The translations under genes and the position numbers were made by a program. Shown in pieces: positions 6,295-24,858 of a DNA stretch of 45,753 bases (positions are counted from its first letter, which is position 1; each line of letters begins with the position of its first letter). The DNA comes from Desulfurococcales archaeon (lineage in GTDB: Archaea; Thermoproteota; Thermoprotei_A; Sulfolobales; Desulfurococcaceae). The stretch lies in NCBI GenBank assembly GCA_027067785.1, contig JAMOVL010000023.1, positions 1-45,753 of the forward strand. Reading direction: 5' to 3'. Below the pieces are notes generated by a model. It made no database searches. It was not told where the DNA came from and saw nothing but the letters and a program-made list of their open reading frames with translations.

Positions 6295-8538
6295 TTAAGA
6301 ATATACTGATGGTTTAAGATACTCTCTCGGTAATCTCTGCCTAGCTCTCGTCGCCCATTCCTCATATATTCTCACTATGTCGGGCGTTATTGACGGCTTC
6401 ACTTTCTCCATTGCCTCGAGGAAGTGGCGCATATGTATCTTTGTGATGTTGATATCTTCTTTGAGAGCACGCATAGCAGCTTCGCGGACGAGTGCTTCTA
6501 GGTCGGCACCACTATATCCTTCTGTTCTCTGTGCAAGCTCGTATAGGTCGACATCAGGCGCTAATGGCATGTTGCGGGTATGTATCTTGAGTATTTCAAG
6601 CCTTGAATTAACATCCGGGGGCGGCACATAGATCAGCTTGTCGAATCTACCGGGCCTCAGCAGCGCTGGATCCAGTATATCCGGCCTATTGGTGGCAGCG
6701 ATAACTACTACGTTCTCGAGACCCGATATACCGTCCATCTCAGTTAGTAGCTGGCTGACTATTCTCTCGGTCACTCTTGTATCGGCGGCATATCCCCTTG
6801 CCGGCGCTATAGCATCGATCTCATCGAAGAATATCACTACGGGTGCATACATTCTCGCTTTCCGGAATATTTCTCTCACAGCTTTTTCTGATTCTCCTAC
6901 CCATTTGCTTAGTATTTCTGGGCCTCTTACTGCGATGAAGTTCGCACCGCTCTCAGTAGCAACAGCCTTGGCCAACAAAGTCTTACCAGTACCTGGCGGT
7001 CCATATAGTAGTATGCCTTTCGGAGGCCGTATACCTAGTCTCTTGAAGACTTCAGGGTACTTCATAGGCCATTCAACGGCTTGTTTTAGCTCCTGCTTAG
7101 CCTCTTCGAGACCGCCTATGTCGTTCCACGAAACCTCTGGTACCTCTACATAGATCTCCCTCAGACCGCTCGGCACGATCTCCTTGTATGCCGCCATGAA
7201 GTCCTCCATTCTAACCTCCATCTTCTCAAGTACTTCAGGCGGTATCGTATCACTATCCAGATCTATTTCTGGCAGGTATCTGCGTAGAGCGTTAAGAGCT
7301 GCTTCCCTCACAAGAGCCGCTATATCAGCACCTGTGTATCCGTGTGTTATCTCGGCGAGCTTACGGAGATCCACGTTATCGGCTAGCGGCATTCCTCTCG
7401 TATGTATTTGTAGTATTTCGAGCCTTCCCTGCTTATCCGGTAGCGGGATCTCGATTTCACGGTCGAACCTGCCCGGCCTCCTCAGGGCTGGGTCTAGGGC
7501 ATTCGGCCTATTAGTTGCCGCTATAACTATGACATCCCCACGGCTCTCTAGACCGTCCATTAGTGCTAGTAGCTGGGCTACTACTCTTCTCTCGACCTCG
7601 CCCATAACCTCGTCTCTCTTCGGCGCGATAGCATCTATTTCATCGATAAATATTATGGCCGGAGCATTCTTCTTTGCCTGCTCGAATATTTCTCTGAGCC
7701 TCTGCTCCGACTCGCCATAGAACTTACTCATGATCTCCGGGCCATTTATCGCTATAAAGTATGCTTCGGACTCGTTAGCAACGGCTTTTGCAAGCAGAGT
7801 CTTACCAGTACCGGGAGGACCGTAGAGCAGTATGCCTTTAGGCGGATCTATGCCGAGACGTTTGAACAGCTCTGGATGCCTGAGCGGCAGCTCAACCATT
7901 TCGCGTATCTTCCGGATAATATGCTTCATACCACCGATGTCTTCGTAGGTGACACGTGGTACTTTATAGGCGTCCATAGGCTTCTCTAGAAGCACGACAT
8001 TCGTCGTCCTCTTAATTATTACTGGGCCTTTAGGCTTAGTGAATACCACTTTTAACGGCAGGCTCTGGCCAAGTATCGGTATCATCACTATGTCTTCCTC
8101 CATGACCGGCCTGTCCAGTAGCTTGTTCTTGACGTAGTTGGCTAGCCTATGATCTGCTGGTGCGAAATACTTGGCCGGCGCAAGTTTCACGACAACCGCT
8201 GGCGGTACATTTATCTTCTCGATCACTACCTTGTCTCCGATCTTAACCCCGGCATTCTGTCTCGTGATATTGTCGAGCCTGATGATGCCGAGGCCCCTAT
8301 CCTGTGGTCTACCCTGTATTACTCTAACAACTGTTCTGCGTTTGCCCTCAACAGCTATTATATCGCCGTTCTCGAGGCCGAGCTTCTCCATGATTTCAGG
8401 ATCTATGCGTGCAATACCCTTGCCTACATCTTTGGGCTCGGCCTCGAGAACTCTCAAAGTGATCCTGTTCTTATCTTTCTTAGATGATGCCGATATGTTC
8501 ACCAATTCATCCACCTTAAAACAACACTGGGTACACAT
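6295..8538 (-). CDS. CDC48/VAT-type AAA+ ATPase with two AAA domains
   Basis: two [15 protein letters not shown] Walker A motifs, [12 protein letters not shown] / [12 protein letters not shown] Walker B motifs, CDC48-N domain. Confidence 0.97.
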
Positions 8539-12303: not shown

Positions 12304-12399
12304 GGGCCCGTAGCCTAGCCAGGATAGGGCGCCGGCCTCCTAAGCACTATGAACTGCAGGGCCAGCCGGAGACCCGGGGTTCGAATCCCCGCGGGCCCG
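12304..12399 (+). tRNA. tRNA-Arg(CCU) with 21-nt intron at 37/38
   Basis: acceptor GGGCCCG/CGGGCCC; anticodon stem CCGGC/GCCGG, loop CTCCTA|A, intron about 12343-12363; T arm GTTCGAATC. Confidence 0.93.
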
Positions 12400-12417
12400 C
12401 ATAACCTTCTCCTATCT

Positions 12418-17151: not shown

Positions 17152-17449
17152 TTAGATCACCAGGATATGTTGTTCAAATAGAAAATGTAGGGTTCTCGTC
17201 AGATAATAAGCGTTCCCCAATATTCTATCATAGAGTGTTTACTCTTCATACAAGCAAAACATTTCTTCTAATAAAAAATATCGACAGTAAAAGCATAGAA
17301 GACAGAATACTCTAATAAACATAGAGACAGAGAAAACATACACGCGATGACGACGGAGTCACGGGACTGAACAAATGATGACCGGGCTATTAACCCGAGC
17401 AAAAACATAGAAATAGGCAACAAACAATCACAAAATACACGGCCAACAA

Positions 17450-17525
17450 GGGCCCGTAGCCTAGCCAGGACCAAGGCGCCGGCCTTCGGAGCCGGAGGTC
17501 CCGGGTTCAAATCCCGGCGGGCCCG
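17450..17525 (+). tRNA. tRNA-Arg(UCG), CCA encoded (17526-17528)
   Basis: GGGCCCG...CCGGC CTTCGGA GCCGG...GGGTTCAAATCCCGG CGGGCCCG CCA. Confidence 0.96.
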
Positions 17526-17536
17526 CCACTTAGGAT

Positions 17537-17938
17537 TTAGTTCTCTGTTTTCATTTTGATTTTTCTTGTAATGAAAGATATAGCGGTTCTAGCTTTTTCT
17601 ATGGCTTCTTCTGCTTCATCTATGGTTATTTCGATCCCGGTATCTGGGTAGCGTGCTTCTATGGCTAGTGGGTATAGCTCATCAATGTCGAGCTCGTGTA
17701 GTTGTTGAAACTCTTGGTCGATTTCACTACATAAGTCTATGAGCCGGGATAAATTATGTGTCTTCCCGAAATGCTTATTGTGGAGCACAAGATACGCCTT
17801 TAATGCTTTCTCAACAGCTTGTTGTGCATGAAAGACAATAACCCAGGGTTCTTCACCGATCTCGAAAAGCTTCTCAGCTACCCTTAAGTCTGTATAGGCT
17901 TTCCTTAACCATTTCTCGGCAATTTCTTCCTTACTCAA
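17537..17938 (-). CDS. HEPN-domain protein (probable toxin of HEPN/MNT pair)
   Basis: WLRKAYTDLRVAEKLFEIGEEPWVIVFHAQQAVEKALKAYLVLHNKHFGKTHNLSRLIDLC. Confidence 0.9.
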   Translation of the reverse strand: MSKEEIAEKWLRKAYTDLRVAEKLFEIGEEPWVIVFHAQQAVEKALKAYLVLHNKHFGKTHNLSRLIDLCSEIDQEFQQLHELDIDELYPLAIEARYPDTGIEITIDEAEEAIEKARTAISFITRKIKMKTEN

Positions 17939-18341
17939 CTTGTTTTCCCTCTAGATGAGCATAGTACGCAATCGTTCCAACAACGTTCTTGTATTTAACA
18001 TAGTACTCCTCACTAACCACTATTACATCACAGTATATTCTGTTCTTAGAAAGTGTCCTATATATCCGATATTGTAATCTCCTAATAGTCTTTCTATCAG
18101 GAGAGCCGCCTACGACAATCAACAAATCCCAATCGCTATCTTCCCTATAGTCACCTCGTGCCCGTGAACCAAAAAGGATTATATTCTTTACCTTAACACC
18201 CTCTTTTCGAGCCTCATTAATAATTACGTCCTTAATGGTTCGCATTAAATATATGGCTTGAGAACTAGACACTCTAATCACCTTACATCTCCATAAACCT
18301 TCTAATGATCTGTAAGTCCTCTCTAAGCTCTTCCTTTCCAT
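17931..18341 (-). CDS. MNT-type nucleotidyltransferase (antitoxin of HEPN/MNT pair)
   Basis: IILFGSRARGDYREDSDWDLLIVV; overlaps HEPN gene; true start may be internal (MRTIKDVII). Confidence 0.9.
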   Translation of the reverse strand: MERKSLERTYRSLEGLWRCKVIRVSSSQAIYLMRTIKDVIINEARKEGVKVKNIILFGSRARGDYREDSDWDLLIVVGGSPDRKTIRRLQYRIYRTLSKNRIYCDVIVVSEEYYVKYKNVVGTIAYYAHLEGKQVE

Positions 18342-18567
18342 AGTGTATTGCTATTCCCTCCCTGACTAATAGCTCTAGGAAGTCCTATTTAGAGAGACCA
18401 GCTATTCTTCTTGCTTGCCCCAGTGTTGCTATGCCTTTCTCGTAGAGCCTTAATGCTAGTTCTATTCTCAGTCTCTCTTCAAGCTTGCCAAAAGGAACCC
18501 GCAGGTTTTCTGGAACCTCAATAACAATGCGTTTAACACTGATTTTAGCCACCATTATCTCCCTCAT
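18306..18567 (-). pseudogene. UPF0175-family (VapB-like) antitoxin interrupted by in-frame TAG
   Basis: EVPENLRVPFGKLEERLRIELALRLYEKGIATLGQARRIAGLSK*DFLELLVREGIAIHYGKEELREDL; same frame continues past the TAG. Confidence 0.75.
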
Positions 18568-18652
18568 AAGACATTATATTCGTAAAAGCTATTAACCCTA
18601 GCCACCACTCGTACTAATTCGATTAAAACAATAACTCAATCCCCAGGCTGGT

Positions 18653-18724
18653 TGTCCCATATACTAGGTAATAGGTATGAATTCTTACCGTAATTGTCCC
18701 ATTTTCTCATCAGTGTGTGGGACA
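18653..18724. promoter_or_regulatory. A-type three-part repeat: TGTCCCA (18653), TGTCCCA (18695), inverted TGGGACA (18718)
   Basis: same architecture and near-identical intervening sequence at 21784-21854. Confidence 0.8.
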
Positions 18725-18737
18725 TTTCCTTTTAAGA

Positions 18738-18789
18738 GCCAGCCTTTGGAGCCGGAGACCCCGGGTTCAAACTCGCGGCGGGCCCGCCA
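18738..18789 (+). repeat. tRNA-Arg-like 3' half, copy F1
   Basis: gccagcctttggagccggagaccccgggttcaaactcgcggcgggcccgcca; resembles 3' half of tRNA-Arg(UCG), no 5' half. Confidence 0.85.
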
Positions 18790-18915
18790 CTTATAAACCA
18801 ATTATATAAAGTCTACCGTTCCCGACGCGAGAATTGGAACTCTTAATTCGAATCGGGAAATTAGGTTTAGTTCTCACTCCACCGGGGATAATCTGGATTG
18901 ATAATCTCATTAGAG

Positions 18916-19362
18916 TTAAGGGATTACTTTAAGCCATGGGACTCGCTTGAAGTCTTCGTCGAACGTTGCTAGTGTTCCTATATTGTAATGCTTGCAGGTT
19001 ATAGCTATTTGTGCATCATTTGGCGTCAGCCTGTAACTCTTAATAGTCTTAATTAGTTCGTCTCGGTCTTGATAATCCCTTAGTATGGTTACTTTGAAGT
19101 CTCCTAGAAAACTGTTAACCTTTTCTATGGCTTCATCGGGAAATCCGTACTTGGTTATGTGCTTCCGGAAAGAGTATTTCCCTTTAACACCATATTTTAT
19201 ACTGGCAATCTTGGCTCCAACGGTGTATAATAGTTCATTGTATGCTATCATAGGAATAGCCATGCCGTCTATAATGGCCTCCCTGATAATACTCTCTGAG
19301 GTACTGGTTAGCTCTGTTTCAAAGAGGAAATGGTAGACGACGTTTGTATCTAGGCATATCAT
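18916..19362 (-). CDS. PIN-domain VapC-type toxin
   Basis: MICLDTNVVYHFLF...NDAQIAITCKHYNIGTLATFDEDFKRV. Confidence 0.92.
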   Translation of the reverse strand: MICLDTNVVYHFLFETELTSTSESIIREAIIDGMAIPMIAYNELLYTVGAKIASIKYGVKGKYSFRKHITKYGFPDEAIEKVNSFLGDFKVTILRDYQDRDELIKTIKSYRLTPNDAQIAITCKHYNIGTLATFDEDFKRVPWLKVIP

Positions 19363-19568
19363 TGTGCTTGCGCCTCATCCTCAAGCTCCAAGAACTCCTC
19401 AATAGAGGATTTCCCGAGAACACCCCTGTACTTTTTGATTAGTTCATCTATGTCCTCTTCTACTATCACCTTGTACTCTTTGCCCTCCTCAAGGTTGATG
19501 CTACCCAGAGGCTTTAGCACGCCTTTCTCGTATCTTACTCTTATAACCCTGGACAATTCTAGCCCCAC
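19359..19568 (-). CDS. VapB-type antitoxin, DUF104-like
   Basis: IRVRYEKGVLKPLGSINLEEGKEYKV; overlaps vapC by 4 nt. Confidence 0.88.
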   Translation of the reverse strand: MGLELSRVIRVRYEKGVLKPLGSINLEEGKEYKVIVEEDIDELIKKYRGVLGKSSIEEFLELEDEAQAQ

Positions 19569-19613
19569 TTATACATGAGGTGCATCGAGGCAATTAGCCT
19601 TTTCTAGCTGAGA

Positions 19614-19696
19614 TGTTTCCAGATTATTCGCTCTGATATCCCAAGTGATAAGCATTTGTGAAGAGTGTTTCCATTTGATGGTTCCCATTGGAAACA
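19614..19696. promoter_or_regulatory. B-type three-part repeat: TGTTTCCA (19614), TGTTTCCA (19666), inverted TGGAAACA (19689)
   Basis: same architecture as 20584-20665 and, with a different word, as the A-type. Confidence 0.8.
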
Positions 19697-19710
19697 TGGT
19701 TTATAAGTTC

Positions 19711-19762
19711 CAGGCCTTTGGAGCCAGAGACCTCCGGGTTCAAATCGTAGCGGCTCACCGCA
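19711..19762 (+). repeat. tRNA-Arg-like 3' half, copy F2
   Basis: caggcctttggagccagagacctccgggttcaaatcgtagcggctcaccgca. Confidence 0.78.
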
Positions 19763-19888
19763 TAAACATCCCTATATAGGCTTCACTATTCCTTGCGAGG
19801 AAAGTTGCTACTCTGAGTTAAGTTGAGGGAATTATGATTGCCTTTCCTCACTAGGGATAATCTTGAAGAGCTAGGAAACTACCTTAAG

Positions 19889-20320
19889 CTATGGCACCCG
19901 TTTAAAGTCCTCATCAAACGTGAGTATGGCATCTATGCCGTAGTGCATGCATGTCAACGCTATTAGCGCGTCTGCTGGTAGCAGATGGAACTTCTTGGCT
20001 GCATCTATGAGCTCTTGAGGTTTAGCCCTGTCTTCTACCACAGCTATGTTTGTCTCTTTTAGGAAGTTGTATAGTTCATCTATGTCTTCCTCGAAGAATC
20101 CGTATCCGTGTTTCTGTATGTATTCTCTCAGTTTTTCTATGCGCCGTATTCCTAATCTTATCCATGCTTTGGTCCTCACTATAGTGAAAATTACTTCATC
20201 TAACACACGAATGCTTGTGTATAGCTCGTCCTCTCCAGAGGTTGTGTCCTCTACAATTTGGGAGTATGGCTTCACATCATGTAGATAGTAGAGTATTGCA
20301 TTAGTATCTAGGAAGAGCAT
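19889..20320 (-). CDS. PIN-domain VapC-type toxin
   Basis: MLFLDTNAILYYLHD...PADALIALTCMHYGIDAILTFDEDFKRVP. Confidence 0.92.
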   Translation of the reverse strand: MLFLDTNAILYYLHDVKPYSQIVEDTTSGEDELYTSIRVLDEVIFTIVRTKAWIRLGIRRIEKLREYIQKHGYGFFEEDIDELYNFLKETNIAVVEDRAKPQELIDAAKKFHLLPADALIALTCMHYGIDAILTFDEDFKRVP

Positions 20321-20523
20321 TACTGCACCTCAGCCTCCAGCATAAACCTGTCGAGGAGCTCCTTAGGCGCAGGACCCAGTACTCCACGATACTTGCGGAG
20401 AACCTTTCTCTTCCTTGCAATCCCCAGAATCTTTACTAACAACTCCTCACCTTCCTCAAAATCAACATTATCCAGCGGTTTTAGCACACCTTTTTCATAC
20501 CTAACCCTAATGACCTTAGACAA
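20320..20523 (-). CDS. VapB-type antitoxin, DUF104-like
   Basis: MSKVIRVRYEKGVLKPLDNVDFEEGEELLVKI. Confidence 0.88.
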   Translation of the reverse strand: MSKVIRVRYEKGVLKPLDNVDFEEGEELLVKILGIARKRKVLRKYRGVLGPAPKELLDRFMLEAEVQ

Positions 20524-20583
20524 TTCTTAACACCCATCCATATATTAAGCGCATCGAAGGAATTAGCTCTTGCCTTAATAACA

Positions 20584-20665
20584 TGTTTTCAGATTTTCAG
20601 TAATGACATCACAGGGGTAATCAGCTATAGAGCTTGTTTCCAACTTATGGTTCCTTCTGGAAACA
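20584..20665. promoter_or_regulatory. B-type three-part repeat: TGTTTTCA (20584), TGTTTCCA (20635), inverted TGGAAACA (20658)
   Basis: matches architecture at 19614-19696. Confidence 0.78.
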
Positions 20666-20680
20666 TTGTTTATATTTTCT

Positions 20681-20730
20681 CGGCCTTCGGAGCCGGAGAC
20701 CCCGGGTTCAAACTCGCGGCAGGCCCGCCA
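20681..20730 (+). repeat. tRNA-Arg-like 3' half, copy F3
   Basis: cggccttcggagccggagacccc gggttcaaactcgcggcaggcccgcca; retains the UCG anticodon loop. Confidence 0.85.
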
Positions 20731-20807
20731 TATTTTGCTAAATTTAATAGCACAGCCTTATATAATCAATCAGAATCATATACTAAAGGAATTCCCATCT
20801 CTTATCA

Positions 20808-21167
20808 TCATGATAAGATTGGTCGTCTTCGTATTTTCGTCTCAGTTACTATTGTTATATAGCCGTATAACTGTTCCTTGAGCCGTAATGCTCTTAGAAT
20901 TGCTCTAATCCTGTTTGGTATTCTTGGGTCTCTTAGTCTTAGAATGATCACACCAGGTGGATTATATGCCTGAGCAAGGTACCCGAAATCCTTGTCCATG
21001 GTTACTATTATCTTGTTATGGCTAATAGCCTCCCTAACAACTTCTTCATCGGGAACTCCTCTTCTTTCTACTAGTATTGATTGCACATGATATCCCTGCC
21101 TCCTAAGCTCATTAAAAACCTTTAACCCAATATTTTCATCAAGAAGAAGCCTAAGCTCTCGTCTCAA
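20808..21167 (-). CDS. DUF5615/PIN-like toxin candidate
   Basis: LLLDENIGLKVFNELRRQGYHVQSI...IIVTMDKDFGYLA. Confidence 0.85.
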   Translation of the reverse strand: MRRELRLLLDENIGLKVFNELRRQGYHVQSILVERRGVPDEEVVREAISHNKIIVTMDKDFGYLAQAYNPPGVIILRLRDPRIPNRIRAILRALRLKEQLYGYITIVTETKIRRRPILS

Positions 21168-21393
21168 TTACTACCTCCTCTCTACCAAGAACCTTAGCTG
21201 CATAGAGTAGTGCTGCCCTAATATCTTCAAGGCTTAAATTATAGTCCTCGACTATCTCTTCCGGCTTCATACCAGCAGCTAGGAGCTCTAGTATCATGTC
21301 AACAGTGATTCTCGTGCCCTTAACCACGGGCTTTCCAGCCATAACTCTAGGATCAACCACTATTCTCTTAAGCAAGTCATTCATTACAATCAC
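21151..21393 (-). CDS. DUF433-family antitoxin candidate
   Basis: RIVVDPRVMAGKPVVKGTRITVDMILELLAAGMKPEEIVEDYNLSLEDIRAAL. Confidence 0.92.
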   Translation of the reverse strand: MIVMNDLLKRIVVDPRVMAGKPVVKGTRITVDMILELLAAGMKPEEIVEDYNLSLEDIRAALLYAAKVLGREEVVIETRA

Positions 21394-21489
21394 CTTACAT
21401 ACTACTTATTGTAACCACTCTAATAACTATCATCACTGTTTTAATTCAAGCAAACTCTCTGGCAATCACGAGACCCCTTTAAGTTCTTT

Positions 21490-21721
21490 TCTTCACCATA
21501 ATAAATGATATTCCCTCCTCAGTAAGAAAATCTAGAGGCCTTAATTGTGTGAACACACTATTCTGATATCTGCCCAAGCGATGCTATAGTCTTCTCATAA
21601 GATCTTAGTGCAAGCCCCATCCTTAATTCCCCTAAACTGGTCTGAACAACCTATGACCTTACCAACTACTATGACAACACGTCTAGCATCAGCCTTAACC
21701 AGCATTGCATCTTCTACAAGA
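21490..21721 (-). pseudogene. decayed UPF0175 antitoxin
   Basis: minus-strand remnants in different frames: MGLALRSYEKTIASLGQISE* and LDFLTEEGISFIM. Confidence 0.65.
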
Positions 21722-21783
21722 CATAATTTTAACTACCCCAACACTTAATAAGAAGACTCGTTAACACATAGCTCTGGTTCAAC

Positions 21784-21854
21784 TGTCCCATATACTAGAT
21801 AATTGGTATGAATTCCTATCGTAAATGTCCCAGTTCACATCAAATTCTGGGACA
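21784..21854. promoter_or_regulatory. A-type three-part repeat: TGTCCCA (21784), TGTCCCA (21826), inverted TGGGACA (21848)
   Basis: TGTCCCATATACTAGATAATTGGTATGAATTCCTATCGTAAATGTCCCA matches 18653-18701 with few substitutions. Confidence 0.82.
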
Positions 21855-21866
21855 GAAGCTTATAAA

Positions 21867-21920
21867 GGCCGGTCTCCGACTCCGGAGACCCCCGAGTTCA
21901 AACCCGTGGCAGGTCCGCCA
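21867..21920 (+). repeat. tRNA-Arg-like 3' half, copy F4
   Basis: ggccggtctccgactccggagacccccgagttcaaacccgtggcaggtccgcca. Confidence 0.75.
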
Positions 21921-22131: not shown

Positions 22132-23529
22132 TTGATAATAATGAAATCTATCAGACATAACTCATATGCTGTAGAGTATGTTTTGAAGTTAAAACTAGAC
22201 ATAAATGATAGACAGCTCAGCGGATCATCTAGGGTTACCGTGGTTAGTTATAGTGGAAAACCTGCTGGTACATTAAGATTTATACTTAATCATGGCCTTA
22301 AGCCTCTCGATGTTAGGGGCGAGCTTATCAGTAAATGGAGATGGTATAGGGGGAGTATAGGCGGCTTACGGGAATTATTCGTTAATGTTATAGAGATCAC
22401 ATATGATAAGCGCTCAGAGAATGATAATAGGATCGAGATAACCATAGATTTTGAAGGAAGTATTAGGGACTATAGTAGTGTTTTCCCATATGTAAAGGAT
22501 TGCATAGGCGAGTATACCCTTATAAGAACAGATGCCTACTCATACCCTGTATTTCTAGCCAATAACGATTTAAGTTTCCATAACCTCGTATCATCAGTTA
22601 TTAGTCAAAGATTTAAGTATAGGATAGAAGTTGCCGCTCCTCGAGACTACGTGGTAGCTAATGTTGGCAAACTAGTTGGCCATAAAGTTAGGGAAGATTA
22701 TAAGGTCTACGTATACATAAGTAAGGTTCCTAGCTGGAGGATGGATATTGCCGTTGCTAAGTTTAGAGTATTAGAAGAGAAACAAGATGATCTAAGAATT
22801 TTCTATTTACCAGAAGATAAGGAATACGCGGAGAGAATACTATACACGTTAAAGAACTGCTTGAAATACTATGAGGAATTATTTGGAAAACCAGCTAGAT
22901 GGAATGGATATACGATCATAGAGCTGCCGGAAACATGGGGTTCACAAGCAGACTATACGGGTATGCTACTAGAAAGGAAGGGCTTTACAGATTCCCACCA
23001 TGCAGGCATTTATCACGAACTAGCCCATCTATGGAACGCTCAATCAGCTGAGCATCCCCCTTCCCGATTTCTCGATGAGGGATTTGCCAGTTATTTCCAG
23101 TTACTAGCTGAGAGAAGATTCATAGGCGATAAATGGTTCAAGGAGAGGTTAAGGAATGCTCGAGAAAAAATTAGAGAATTAGCCAAGAAAACACCCAAGC
23201 TACTAGAAGTCCCTCTTGCAGACTATGGTAAATACTACTTAACAGATGCATCATACCTTGTCGGAGTACTACTACTGTATGTTCTAAACAGATTAACAGG
23301 CGATCAGTGCTTCTACAAGGCTATACGTAGATTCCTTGAAAAGCACTACGAAACACCAGCTACACTGGAAAGCTTTAAAGAAGCATTTGTGGAGATCTGC
23401 GGAGACAGGATAAGAAGTTTCTTAGAAGAATGGTTCTATACGACAAAACCAGTAGAGCTGATTATAGAGAAAGACATAGATGAAATTATAGAGCTATACA
23501 AATCAAGGTTATACGAATCGCTTCAATAA
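22132..23529 (+). CDS. M1-like (gluzincin) metallopeptidase
   Basis: IYHELAHLWNAQSAEHPPSRFLDEGFASYFQ: HExxH with downstream E. Confidence 0.85.
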   Translation: MIIMKSIRHNSYAVEYVLKLKLDINDRQLSGSSRVTVVSYSGKPAGTLRFILNHGLKPLDVRGELISKWRWYRGSIGGLRELFVNVIEITYDKRSENDNRIEITIDFEGSIRDYSSVFPYVKDCIGEYTLIRTDAYSYPVFLANNDLSFHNLVSSVISQRFKYRIEVAAPRDYVVANVGKLVGHKVREDYKVYVYISKVPSWRMDIAVAKFRVLEEKQDDLRIFYLPEDKEYAERILYTLKNCLKYYEELFGKPARWNGYTIIELPETWGSQADYTGMLLERKGFTDSHHAGIYHELAHLWNAQSAEHPPSRFLDEGFASYFQLLAERRFIGDKWFKERLRNAREKIRELAKKTPKLLEVPLADYGKYYLTDASYLVGVLLLYVLNRLTGDQCFYKAIRRFLEKHYETPATLESFKEAFVEICGDRIRSFLEEWFYTTKPVELIIEKDIDEIIELYKSRLYESLQ

Positions 23530-23834: not shown

Positions 23835-24858
23835 CTAATGGTATCCCTTTACATACTTGCGGTTTCTAGAGAATAAAGATATCATCAGTAATGCTGGCAT
23901 AATTGTTACAATCATTATCTCGGTAAACAGAAGGATATTGTCTTCACGTCTTATAGCGTTAAAACAAATCCATTCAGGATAATTGCTGTATAGTGCTAGG
24001 ACTACCATGCTTGTTGTCTCGGTGTTCATGTCGCCTTGAATAACTATTTTCCCATTAACGACGCGGTAATCTGTGTGTGTACCGCCTTTAACGGGGTCTT
24101 GTGCTTTGGCTATTATTTCTAGGCATTTTTCATAGATATCTTGATAGTCGTAGATTATGGTCGAACCAGCAGCCTCAAGAGCCCTGTAGAGATAAATGAA
24201 GAGCGCACATTTATAGACCTGGTAAACCCCGTGTTCTTTTACGAAATTATCCTTGAAACCATAGCCATCCCACATCCTCGTTAGATTAAGGAATGATTTT
24301 TCAGCCTCAGATTTAGAGCCTTGTAATAATTTATTCAGAGCATGATATACGAGTAGGTCGGCATAATTGTACCAATCAGTGATAATTACCGAAGTGTTCA
24401 TCTTTTCGTATACAATGGTGTAGCCATCAATTCTTCCCACGACTTCTTTCTCCGGCTTATAGAACTTATCAGGAATACTTTTGCATAGAAGGACATCTAT
24501 CTTACCGTTCCATCCGCCACTGAAATTATTGTATAGGACACTCATTACTCTTTCAGCTAATGGTGATCCGAGAACGGCTAGAGCTCTAGCAACTAATACA
24601 TTATCATTAGCGACGTAGATCGTTGTGTTATCTGGACTTACCATTGTAGCGGCTCGTAAAAGATCTGCTTGCGGCACATATTGTTCTTCAAGAAATGATC
24701 TAGTTTTTCACTGCTAAGCAATGGGATATAATTCGTTGTTTCCCCCATCCAGTATCATCGCCTATTAATGACGATACCAATAGTAATGTAAAGATTATTA
24801 TTAGCGTCAGGGACACTGGTCTGCATTTCCATATTTTTTCTCGAGGTTCTAAAGACAT
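23835..24858 (-). pseudogene. membrane-anchored hypothetical protein with apparent 5' frameshifts
   Basis: 24858 start MSLEPREKIWKCRPVSLTLIIIFTLLLVSSLIGDD, then ETTNYIPLLSSEKLDHFL in a second frame, then LEEQYVPQADLLRAATMVSP in the 23835-24677 ORF frame. Confidence 0.55.

Follow-up and report, generated by a model that had tools for sequence, protein, structure and literature searches.

Toxin–antitoxin units stacked at tRNA-Arg genes of hyperthermophilic archaea look like small mobile cassettes

Introduction

Integrons are rich in toxin–antitoxin (TA) cassettes. Integrons and superintegrons, including archaeal ones (PMC9668308), share several features with the locus described here, i.e., single-operon cassettes with one site each, a fixed entry point, a common orientation, and TA cargo. 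They differ from it in that no IntI, attI, or attC is found here, entry is at a tRNA gene, and the matching SSV-type integrase has its gene in other elements.

In Streptococcus, CIMEs formed by site-specific accretion are integrase-less, att-bounded elements stacked with integrase elements at one target gene (PMC7563491). The units considered here are likewise att-bounded, lack an integrase of their own, occur in tandem with integrase-bearing elements, and tend, if weakly, to be most decayed farthest from the target. Whereas the structures reported for CIMEs comprise two or three elements, of conjugative origin and with varied cargo (PMC7563491), up to seven units of ~1 kb are found here. Their cargo is almost only TA, the same cassette is met again in other genera and families, and the apparent parent is an SSV-type integrase element of archaea.

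SSV/pNOB8-type elements belong to the same recombinase superfamily (PF16795; PDB 3uxu, 3vcf, and 4dks) and use the same class of tRNA targets; the core of ~48 bp lies within the range of 29–69 bp cited for crenarchaeal tRNA cores in PMC6563490. In contrast to these elements, the integrase gene here is unsplit by integration, carries an N-terminal HTH, and is accompanied by paired X arms and by TA cassettes without integrase. In Aeropyrum pernix, six partial tRNA fragments were noted in 2011 and ascribed to possible viral integration (PMC3218864); the passages of that paper dealing with the fragments do not describe cassette structure, arm repeats, TA cargo, or cognate integrases. From the comparisons reported below, it looks as though heat-loving archaea stack mobile TA cassettes of ~1 kb at tRNA-Arg, each usually consisting of one operon and a shared recombination site.

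The array at tRNA-Arg(UCG)

The window, i.e., the whole stretch of DNA that was analysed, is a contig of 45,753 nucleotides from a Desulfurococcales archaeon (assembly GCA_027067785.1, contig JAMOVL010000023.1). It contains the following array.

17450..17528, +, intact tRNA-Arg(UCG), array head and landing site (attB/attL); ARAGORN, Rfam tRNA 66.4 bits
17529..18789, +, cassette 1, 1261 bp: HEPN, MNT, and truncated UPF0175; right end class A
17537..17938, -, HEPN protein, 133 aa; PF05168, E 6.9e-27
17931..18341, -, MNT nucleotidyltransferase, 136 aa; PF01909, E 1.8e-11
18385..18567, -, antitoxin-like ORF of the UPF0175 family, cut short by a premature stop; PF03683, tblastn
18790..19761, +, cassette 2, 972 bp: VapBC; right end class B
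18916..19362, -, VapC-like PIN toxin, 148 aa; PF01850, E 7.2e-16
19359..19568, -, VapB-like AF2212 antitoxin, 69 aa; PF01954, E 3.6e-19
19762..20730, +, cassette 3, 969 bp: VapBC; right end class B
19889..20320, -, VapC-like PIN toxin, 143 aa; PF01850, E 3.2e-17
20320..20523, -, VapB-like AF2212 antitoxin, 67 aa; PF01954, E 2.5e-20
20731..21920, +, cassette 4, 1190 bp: DUF5615/DUF433 pair and UPF0175 remnant; right end class A
20808..21167, -, DUF5615 (PIN-like) protein, 119 aa; PF18480, E 2e-18
21151..21393, -, DUF433 antitoxin-like protein, 80 aa; PF04255, E 1.3e-24
21570..21626, -, UPF0175 gene remnant; tblastn, 19 aa at 79% identity

The anticodon of the head tRNA is read as TCG by ARAGORN. 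Copies of its 3' half lie at 18742, 19714, 20683, and 21873 (spacing 1260, 972, 969, and 1190), and unit ends were placed at 18789, 19761, 20730, and 21920. The unit lengths agree closely with the first-pass annotation, which had described four units behind an intact tRNA-Arg, and Pfam supports the gene contents that it had proposed (HEPN/MNT with UPF0175, VapBC twice, and DUF5615/DUF433). All cassette genes of the window are on the minus strand. The UPF0175 ORF of cassette 1 is, by tblastn, an otherwise full-length match broken by an in-frame stop, while that of cassette 4, already thought to be decayed, is found by tblastn only as the remnant listed above.

End-to-end homologues of cassette 1 are found in genomes G020 (83.7%) and G011 (83.5%), with unrelated neighbours there. 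Cassette 2 has homologues in G003 (83%), G045 (77%), G060 (79%), and G029 (79%), cassette 3 in G045 (78%), and cassette 4 has a relative in G020 (76%). Downstream of the array, a peptidase gene (22132–23529) was not found in the five other members of the genus and is, therefore, unusable as a conserved anchor.

The composite recombination site

At its right end, each unit has a pair of direct repeats with an inverted copy (X-X-X'), followed by an AT box and then by a 3' half of tRNA-Arg, 48 nt long.

18653..18789, +, composite site 1 (class A): X1 18653–18659, X2 18695–18701 (TGTCCCA), X3' 18718–18724 (TGGGACA), AT box 18730–18736, tRNA half about 18739–18789
19615..19761, +, composite site 2 (class B): X1 19615–19621, X2 19667–19673 (GTTTCCA), X3' 19689–19695 (TGGAAAC), AT box 19701–19708, tRNA half 19711–19761
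20585..20730, +, composite site 3 (class B): X1 20585–20591 (GTTTTCA), X2 20636–20642 (GTTTCCA), X3' 20658–20664 (TGGAAAC), AT box 20669–20676, tRNA half 20681–20730
21784..21920, +, composite site 4 (class A): X1 21784–21790, X2 21826–21832 (TGTCCCA), X3' 21848–21854 (TGGGACA), AT box 21860–21867, degenerate tRNA half 21869–21920

Units 1 and 4 thus read TGTCCCA/TGTCCCA/TGGGACA, and units 2 and 3 GTTTCCA/GTTTCCA/TGGAAAC, with one mismatch in X1 of unit 3. X1 and X2 lie 42 bp from each other in class A, against 52–54 bp in classes B and C, a difference of about one helical turn. The AT (TATA-like) box sits between X3' and the tRNA half in 4/4 units. Such triples exceed chance: among 59 halves, taken from the window and 19 related loci, 16 carry a perfect 7-mer triple (1 in 2950 shuffles) and 30 a triple with at most one mismatch (29 in 2950 shuffles), a pattern which the same test found in none of the intact head tRNAs. 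The composite end outlined by the first-pass annotation, with its repeats, TATA-like box, and tRNA-Arg 3' half, is borne out by the four units, and its repeats also by the shuffle test.

Rfam gives no family at cut-off in the composites, and their single-strand folding is only moderately better than that of shuffles (z −0.9 to −2.9). A sequence-only model was used for the composite search; a mixed-class covariance model with paired X2 and X3' was dropped because classes A and B were one column out of register in its alignment.

Distribution, cargo, and turnover of the cassettes

The same composite recurs in arrays at tRNA-Arg(TCG/CCG/GCG) in ten families (f1–f10) of the order, which answers a search proposed with the original description. 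About 38 of the 147 genomes carry it, counting only matches that reach into the arms. At three loci (L021, L022, and L037), the array or lone composite is not headed by a tRNA within the stretch examined. The longest arrays have seven units of ~1 kb, and unit lengths peak at 0.9–1.03 kb. Among units shorter than 3 kb, 92/102 have a TA-like ORF, and the density of such ORFs is 12.0 per 10 kb in cassettes vs. 0.49 in flanks. Most are oriented towards the tRNA (VapB 41/45, PIN 58/68), so that, as in integrons, single-operon cassettes share one orientation and one entry point, here with tRNA-Arg at the head of the arrays.

The occupancy of orthologous sites varies: the tRNA may stand alone, be followed by a single cassette, which is not the same in all genomes, or be followed by four. 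In G002, the tRNA site is empty, and the upstream flank is 95% identical up to the tRNA end. One VapBC cassette is common to G001 and G003 at the orthologous tRNA, and in G001 it is flanked by the tRNA on one side and by the remnant of an integrase on the other. G005 carries a different cassette from that of G001, although the flanks are 93% identical, and homology ends at CCA. The predicted gain and loss of single cassettes, with junctions at CCA, is thus observed. The block as a whole is not common to related species; had it been, this would have spoken against mobility. Between genera and families, end-to-end cassettes are shared at 77–92% identity (e.g., aligned 1–1265 vs. 1–1259, or 2–980 vs. 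2–980) with unrelated neighbours, the left flanks being unrelated in 18/18 pairs.

Integrase elements with the same arms

No integrase is present in any of the four window units. In the window's own genome (81% complete), neither the class A nor the class B integrases have a match, so that the cassettes there need not be mobile at present. Full-size elements of 6–25 kb, likewise situated at tRNA genes, carry the gene of an SSV-type integrase (PF16795-like, 420–500 aa) with an N-terminal HTH; its catalytic domain gives the Pfam and PDB matches named above. R277, K324, R368, and Y402, which we take to be the catalytic residues, are invariant in 14 sequences. About 25–30 int ORFs are intact, i.e., not split with attP inside int as SSV-type integration would have it; those with an adjacent tRNA mostly start 50–220 bp downstream of the intact tRNA gene.

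Six integrase elements (6–25 kb; one approximate) have the same X...X' at attL and attR beside the core. Across the integrase loci compared, the X...X' spacing in attL is mostly 21–24 bp, as in the cassettes. Every A-clade integrase examined is accompanied by the class A X (TGTCCCA), in one case at a spacing of 26 bp. The class B X (GTTTCCA) occurs at the G019 integrase, the single integrase element behind class B, the class C X (GTTGCAT) at four integrases, and the class D X (TGTTTCA) at three or four. Each X class of the window cassettes thus has an integrase element carrying that X, in a classification partly defined after seeing the data, since the match was noticed while reading sequences. 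In the best-sampled clades, the X class tracks the integrase clade.

Left ends of class B and C cassettes match those of class B and C integrase elements, respectively. The left-side X...X' pair of the integrase elements is missing from most cassettes, for which one arm would have to suffice. As in CIMEs, att sites are kept (right ends corresponding to attR, several left ends to attL), and integrase and transfer genes are lacking. Searches of phage, plasmid, and IMG/VR collections, in which the order may be under-sampled, gave no carrier of the integrases or of the class A arm pattern. PF00589 (XerA-like) recombinases occur in most genomes.

Mobilisation of the cassettes and alternative explanations

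Each unit is probably a non-autonomous TA cassette, bounded by the tRNA-Arg core and X-X-X' arms and mobilised in trans by an SSV-type integrase, the gene for which sits on the larger elements that insert at these tRNAs. The cassettes are best read as CIME-like and, in behaviour, integron-like. In the proposed cycle, the integrase would bind the X repeats and core and excise a circle comprising cargo, X-X-X', AT box, and core. The circle would recombine with an intact tRNA-Arg, strand exchange presumably occurring inside the 48-bp stretch from the anticodon stem to CCA, with a predicted crossover in the anticodon loop. Judging from the junctions compared, the cassette's own 3' half would restore the tRNA, and the old half would shift downstream with the X-X-X' preceding it. 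Repeated insertion would stack cassettes behind the tRNA, newest first, an order supported by a single direct comparison and by a weak trend in polarity. The X sequence would decide which integrase family serves which cassette, binding being predicted from the X match. TA cargo would make cassette loss costly and thereby account for the bias in cargo as well as for the length of the arrays.

Several claims of the first-pass annotation are modified by this reading. It had seen no recombinase, which holds inside the units, but a matching integrase is present in separate elements. Its cassettes do behave as individually mobile units, judging from gain, loss, and recurrence, and units free of recombinase are consistent with mobilisation in trans. 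Its suggestion that the tRNA-like sites act like attC finds no support; with a tRNA core and arm-type repeats, they resemble ordinary tyrosine-recombinase att sites, here of a specific archaeal integrase family. Insertion of one element after another beside the tRNA, with which it had contrasted the units, belongs to the mechanism itself.

Homologous recombination between tRNA halves could, without integrase, move cassettes among arrays and genomes, as ~50 bp of tRNA homology flanks every unit, to which composites add ~90 bp of shared arm. It may still contribute to cassette movement; as the full account it is unlikely, since the position, spacing, and sharing with integrase elements of the class-specific X-X-X' arms are left unexplained.

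Alternatively, the units could be immobile relics of full-size elements that decayed independently, keeping the TA genes beside attR because their loss kills the cell. Some cassette left ends do equal those of integrase elements, in the L120 unit VapBC lies next to the right end, decayed integrases are present in arrays (G001), and tRNA halves decay with distance in the array, though weakly (Spearman −0.24, P = 0.026). Nevertheless, independent deletions would not yield identical end-to-end cassettes in different families with unrelated neighbours, and this sharing weakens the relic reading; neither the peak in unit length nor the differences in single cassettes between species with 93% identical flanks favours it, and it is judged distinctly improbable. 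Deletion may well be the first origin of the mobile cassettes, whose ends, common to integrase elements, are compatible with it, with no intermediate series found.

It is very improbable that the AT box and tRNA half form a promoter and a short RNA gene, such as one half of a split tRNA or a tRNA-like regulator of the TA genes. Split tRNAs occur in this order (PMC3218864), and an AT box precedes each half, but it lies only a few bp away, too close for transcription to start at the 5' end of the half. Moreover, Rfam has nothing at cut-off there, the halves are degenerate in older units, and integrase elements whose cargo differs show the same layout at their attR. Nor does the locus fit a split tRNA itself, the full tRNA being intact in the window and the composites bearing, in place of complementary leaders, arm repeats common to integrase elements.

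A true integron, with attC cassettes moved by IntI, is scarcely credible despite the cassette organisation and TA cargo noted above and the report of integrons in archaeal MAGs, including Thermoproteota (PMC9668308), since the matching integrase is SSV-type and the sites are host tRNA core plus arm repeats with the modest folding already given. Serial tandem duplication of one unit beside the tRNA, left open initially and suggested by the right end common to all units, can be rejected with near certainty because only 3/141 unit pairs within arrays are homologous, no more than between arrays (153/5010).

Implications

With its matching integrase in a separate element family, the putatively trans-mobilised cassette system looks integron-like, built on a tRNA gene instead of attI. 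Archaeal 'tRNA-integrons', in which integrase families of different X classes compete for or share tRNA-Arg entry sites and self-maintaining TA cassettes circulate independently among hyperthermophile families, are a wider proposal held with middling confidence. The cassette system would explain the spread and build-up of TA operons in small hyperthermophile genomes, account for unexplained tRNA fragments, and offer a second, independently evolved cassette system for comparison with integrons. Arm-site specificity tied to integrase clade would, furthermore, allow a code-like prediction from X to integrase, testable in vitro.

Aeropyrum pernix is among the array carriers, its genome being recognised by the split tRNA-Asp at 372080 (PMC3218864); its composites probably include the six fragments mentioned there. 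As A. pernix is in culture, excision is directly testable in it. In two complete Aeropyrum genomes, the second of which (G093) is presumably that of Aeropyrum camini, most AF2212 antitoxin matches lie within these arrays.

Array Behind tRNA-Arg(TCG)

In the window, four cassettes, ending at 18789, 19761, 20730 and 21920, follow a tRNA gene and are each closed by a copy of its 3' half.

17450-17528: tRNA-Arg(TCG), head of the array
18742 (start): first tRNA 3'-half copy
19714 (start): second tRNA 3'-half copy
20683 (start): third tRNA 3'-half copy
21873 (start): fourth tRNA 3'-half copy

Two direct repeats (X1, X2), an inverted one (X3') and then an AT box lie 5' of each copy, forming with the half (the core) a composite site. 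The repeat is TGTCCCA (class A) in units 1 and 4, and GTTTCCA (class B) in units 2 and 3; a perfect X triple accompanies 16 of 59 halves, versus 1 in 2950 shuffles. The gene contents proposed in the first-pass annotation (HEPN/MNT with UPF0175, two VapBC modules, and DUF5615/DUF433 with a decayed UPF0175) were borne out, two UPF0175 genes being broken. The window also holds a possible C/D-box sRNA 5' of the tRNA (17343-17400; Rfam sR14, 29.2 bits, below the 38-bit cut-off) and, at 12304-12400, a tRNA-Arg(CCT), interrupted by a 21-nt intron and overlooked by ARAGORN at default settings, which is not followed by an array.

Site Anatomy and Cargo

The core common to the copies spans 48 nt, from the anticodon stem to CCA. 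X1-X2 spacing is 42 bp in 22/31 class A sites, 52-53 bp in 19/23 of class B and 54 bp in 12/14 of class C (GTTGCAT), with X2-X3' spacings of 23, 22 and 21, respectively. The step from 42 to 52-54 bp between classes amounts to roughly one turn of the helix, suggestive of a protein-DNA complex assembling at the site.

Units below 3 kb peak in length at 0.9-1.03 kb, and 92 of the 102 carry an ORF of toxin-antitoxin (TA) type, at a density of 12.0 per 10 kb, versus 0.49 in the flanks. Cargo families, whose putative TA function is assigned by family membership, include PIN, AF2212, DUF433, DUF5615, UPF0175, TumE, HicA, HEPN and MNT; of the 45 VapB ORFs, 41 face the tRNA. A pair formed by a DUF5678 protein and a retropepsin-like aspartic protease domain recurs (loci L021:5410-6053, L021:9734-10414 and L022:4498-5190), possibly constituting an undescribed TA-like module.

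Distribution

A DNA search and a sequence-only covariance model revealed arrays with the composite in ten of the order's families, f1-f10 (by our own count, about 38 of 147 genomes); in f11, the composite was absent among the matches listed. At a strict threshold, the composite was detected in 17 of 398 phylum-wide genomes, G522 included. This good-quality genome, from another order of the same class, has composites at two intact tRNA-Arg genes (L243, L244), accompanied by a DUF433/DUF5615 unit and a fragment resembling an integrase. Three matches in other classes, on short contigs without a tRNA, could be misbinned. Exact arm-pattern matches in named genomes fall in MAGs labelled Desulfurococcales, Staphylothermus, Pyrodictiaceae and Acidilobaceae.

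At most loci, the head is an intact tRNA-Arg (TCG, CCG or GCG). Composites without a head tRNA within the fetched stretch (L021, L022, L037) were perhaps split off by rearrangement between tRNA-Arg sites. G049 was recognised as Aeropyrum pernix and G084 as Staphylothermus marinus from split-tRNA positions that coincide with published ones (PMC3218864). In that paper, viral integration or rearrangement is offered as a possible origin of the partial tRNA fragments of A. pernix.

The nearest known kind is that of cis-mobilizable elements (CIMEs) and accretion (PMC7563491); the integrons of archaea are of the conventional IntI/attC type (PMC9668308). Searches of an open-access library turned up no account of tRNA genes with arrays of TA cassettes.

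Probable Exchange and Insertion of Cassettes

Cassettes appear to move one at a time: all-against-all comparison yielded end-to-end cassette matches between genomes, with unrelated left flanks in 18/18 pairs and right flanks unrelated or just partly similar. Cassette 1 of the window is matched in G020 (83.7%) and G011 (83.5%), and cassette 2 in G003 (83%), G060 (79%, family f8) and G045 (77%, f2); 918 bp at 91% are common to G073 (f5) and G083 (f9). For G000 and G001, which belong to one genus, conserved DNA 5' of the same tRNA shows 80-84% identity; by this yardstick, which is flank DNA at one tRNA site rather than genome-wide identity, cassette transfer between families is likely. In 640 unit pairs, the right arm is common and cargo homology undetectable.

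Within the genus, the orthologous tRNA-Arg(TCG) site of G002 is empty: 95% flank identity to the window holds as far as the tRNA end, and homology picks up again at window position 23906, so that the window has about 6.4 kb extra, comprising the four cassettes and some 2 kb more, in which a peptidase gene lies. One VapBC cassette is common to G001 and G003; that of G005 differs from that of G001 despite 93% identical flanks, homology ending at CCA. In G001, the cassette separates the tRNA from an integrase remnant, an intact relative of which directly follows tRNA-Arg(TCG) on another G002 contig. Because G002 is a fragmented MAG and this contig starts at the tRNA, the two contigs may represent strain variants or a misbinned piece.

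Half scores drop with position (51, 38, 34, 32 and 28 bits; Spearman -0.24, P = 0.026 among cassettes), which, together with the cassette placement in G001, favours insertion at the tRNA end.

Associated Integrases

A search for recombinases close to arrays led to an integrase, 420-500 aa long, that lies at these tRNA genes and has a PF16795 match and an N-terminal HTH. Its nearest solved structures, 3uxu, 3vcf and 4dks, bear the database label 'probable integrase' and represent the SSV1 integrase. In the order, 51 of 214 genomes encode relatives, which are found at tRNA-Arg and also at tRNA Gly, Thr, Ser and Asp. An X...X' pair, mostly spaced by 21-24 bp, lies between the tRNA and the integrase start or overlaps that start.

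X classes at integrase loci
Class A: L120, L189, L035, L190, L186, L191 (26-bp spacing in L191)
Class B: L176
Class C: L174, L178, L180, L170
Class D (TGTTTCA): L119, L195, L202

Six integrase elements also bear a matching pair at the far end, beside a repeated core: L119 (about 9.5-9.6 kb), L195 (17.1 kb), L196 (6.3 kb), L170 (8.2 kb), L203 (11.1 kb) and L197 (approximately 24.6 kb). In the integrase tree, X class tracks clade for A (5/5), F (4/4) and the greater part of E and D; class C is scattered. Structure, distribution, the ends common to cassettes and integrase elements, and gain and loss between genomes are observed; we infer that X would be bound by the integrase HTH, with crossover inside the core, and that cassettes would be mobilised in trans and maintained through their TA cargo.

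In the mixed array at L119 (281-16661; G048:C47), the integrase element adjoins the tRNA, and smaller units of differing X classes come after it. Class A arm-like repeats flank both sides of one composite half in L021 (about 7403-7539), an arrangement resembling a complete attP. Elsewhere in the window, a serine-resolvase-like gene (PF00239; 42360-42986) lies close to tRNA-Leu.
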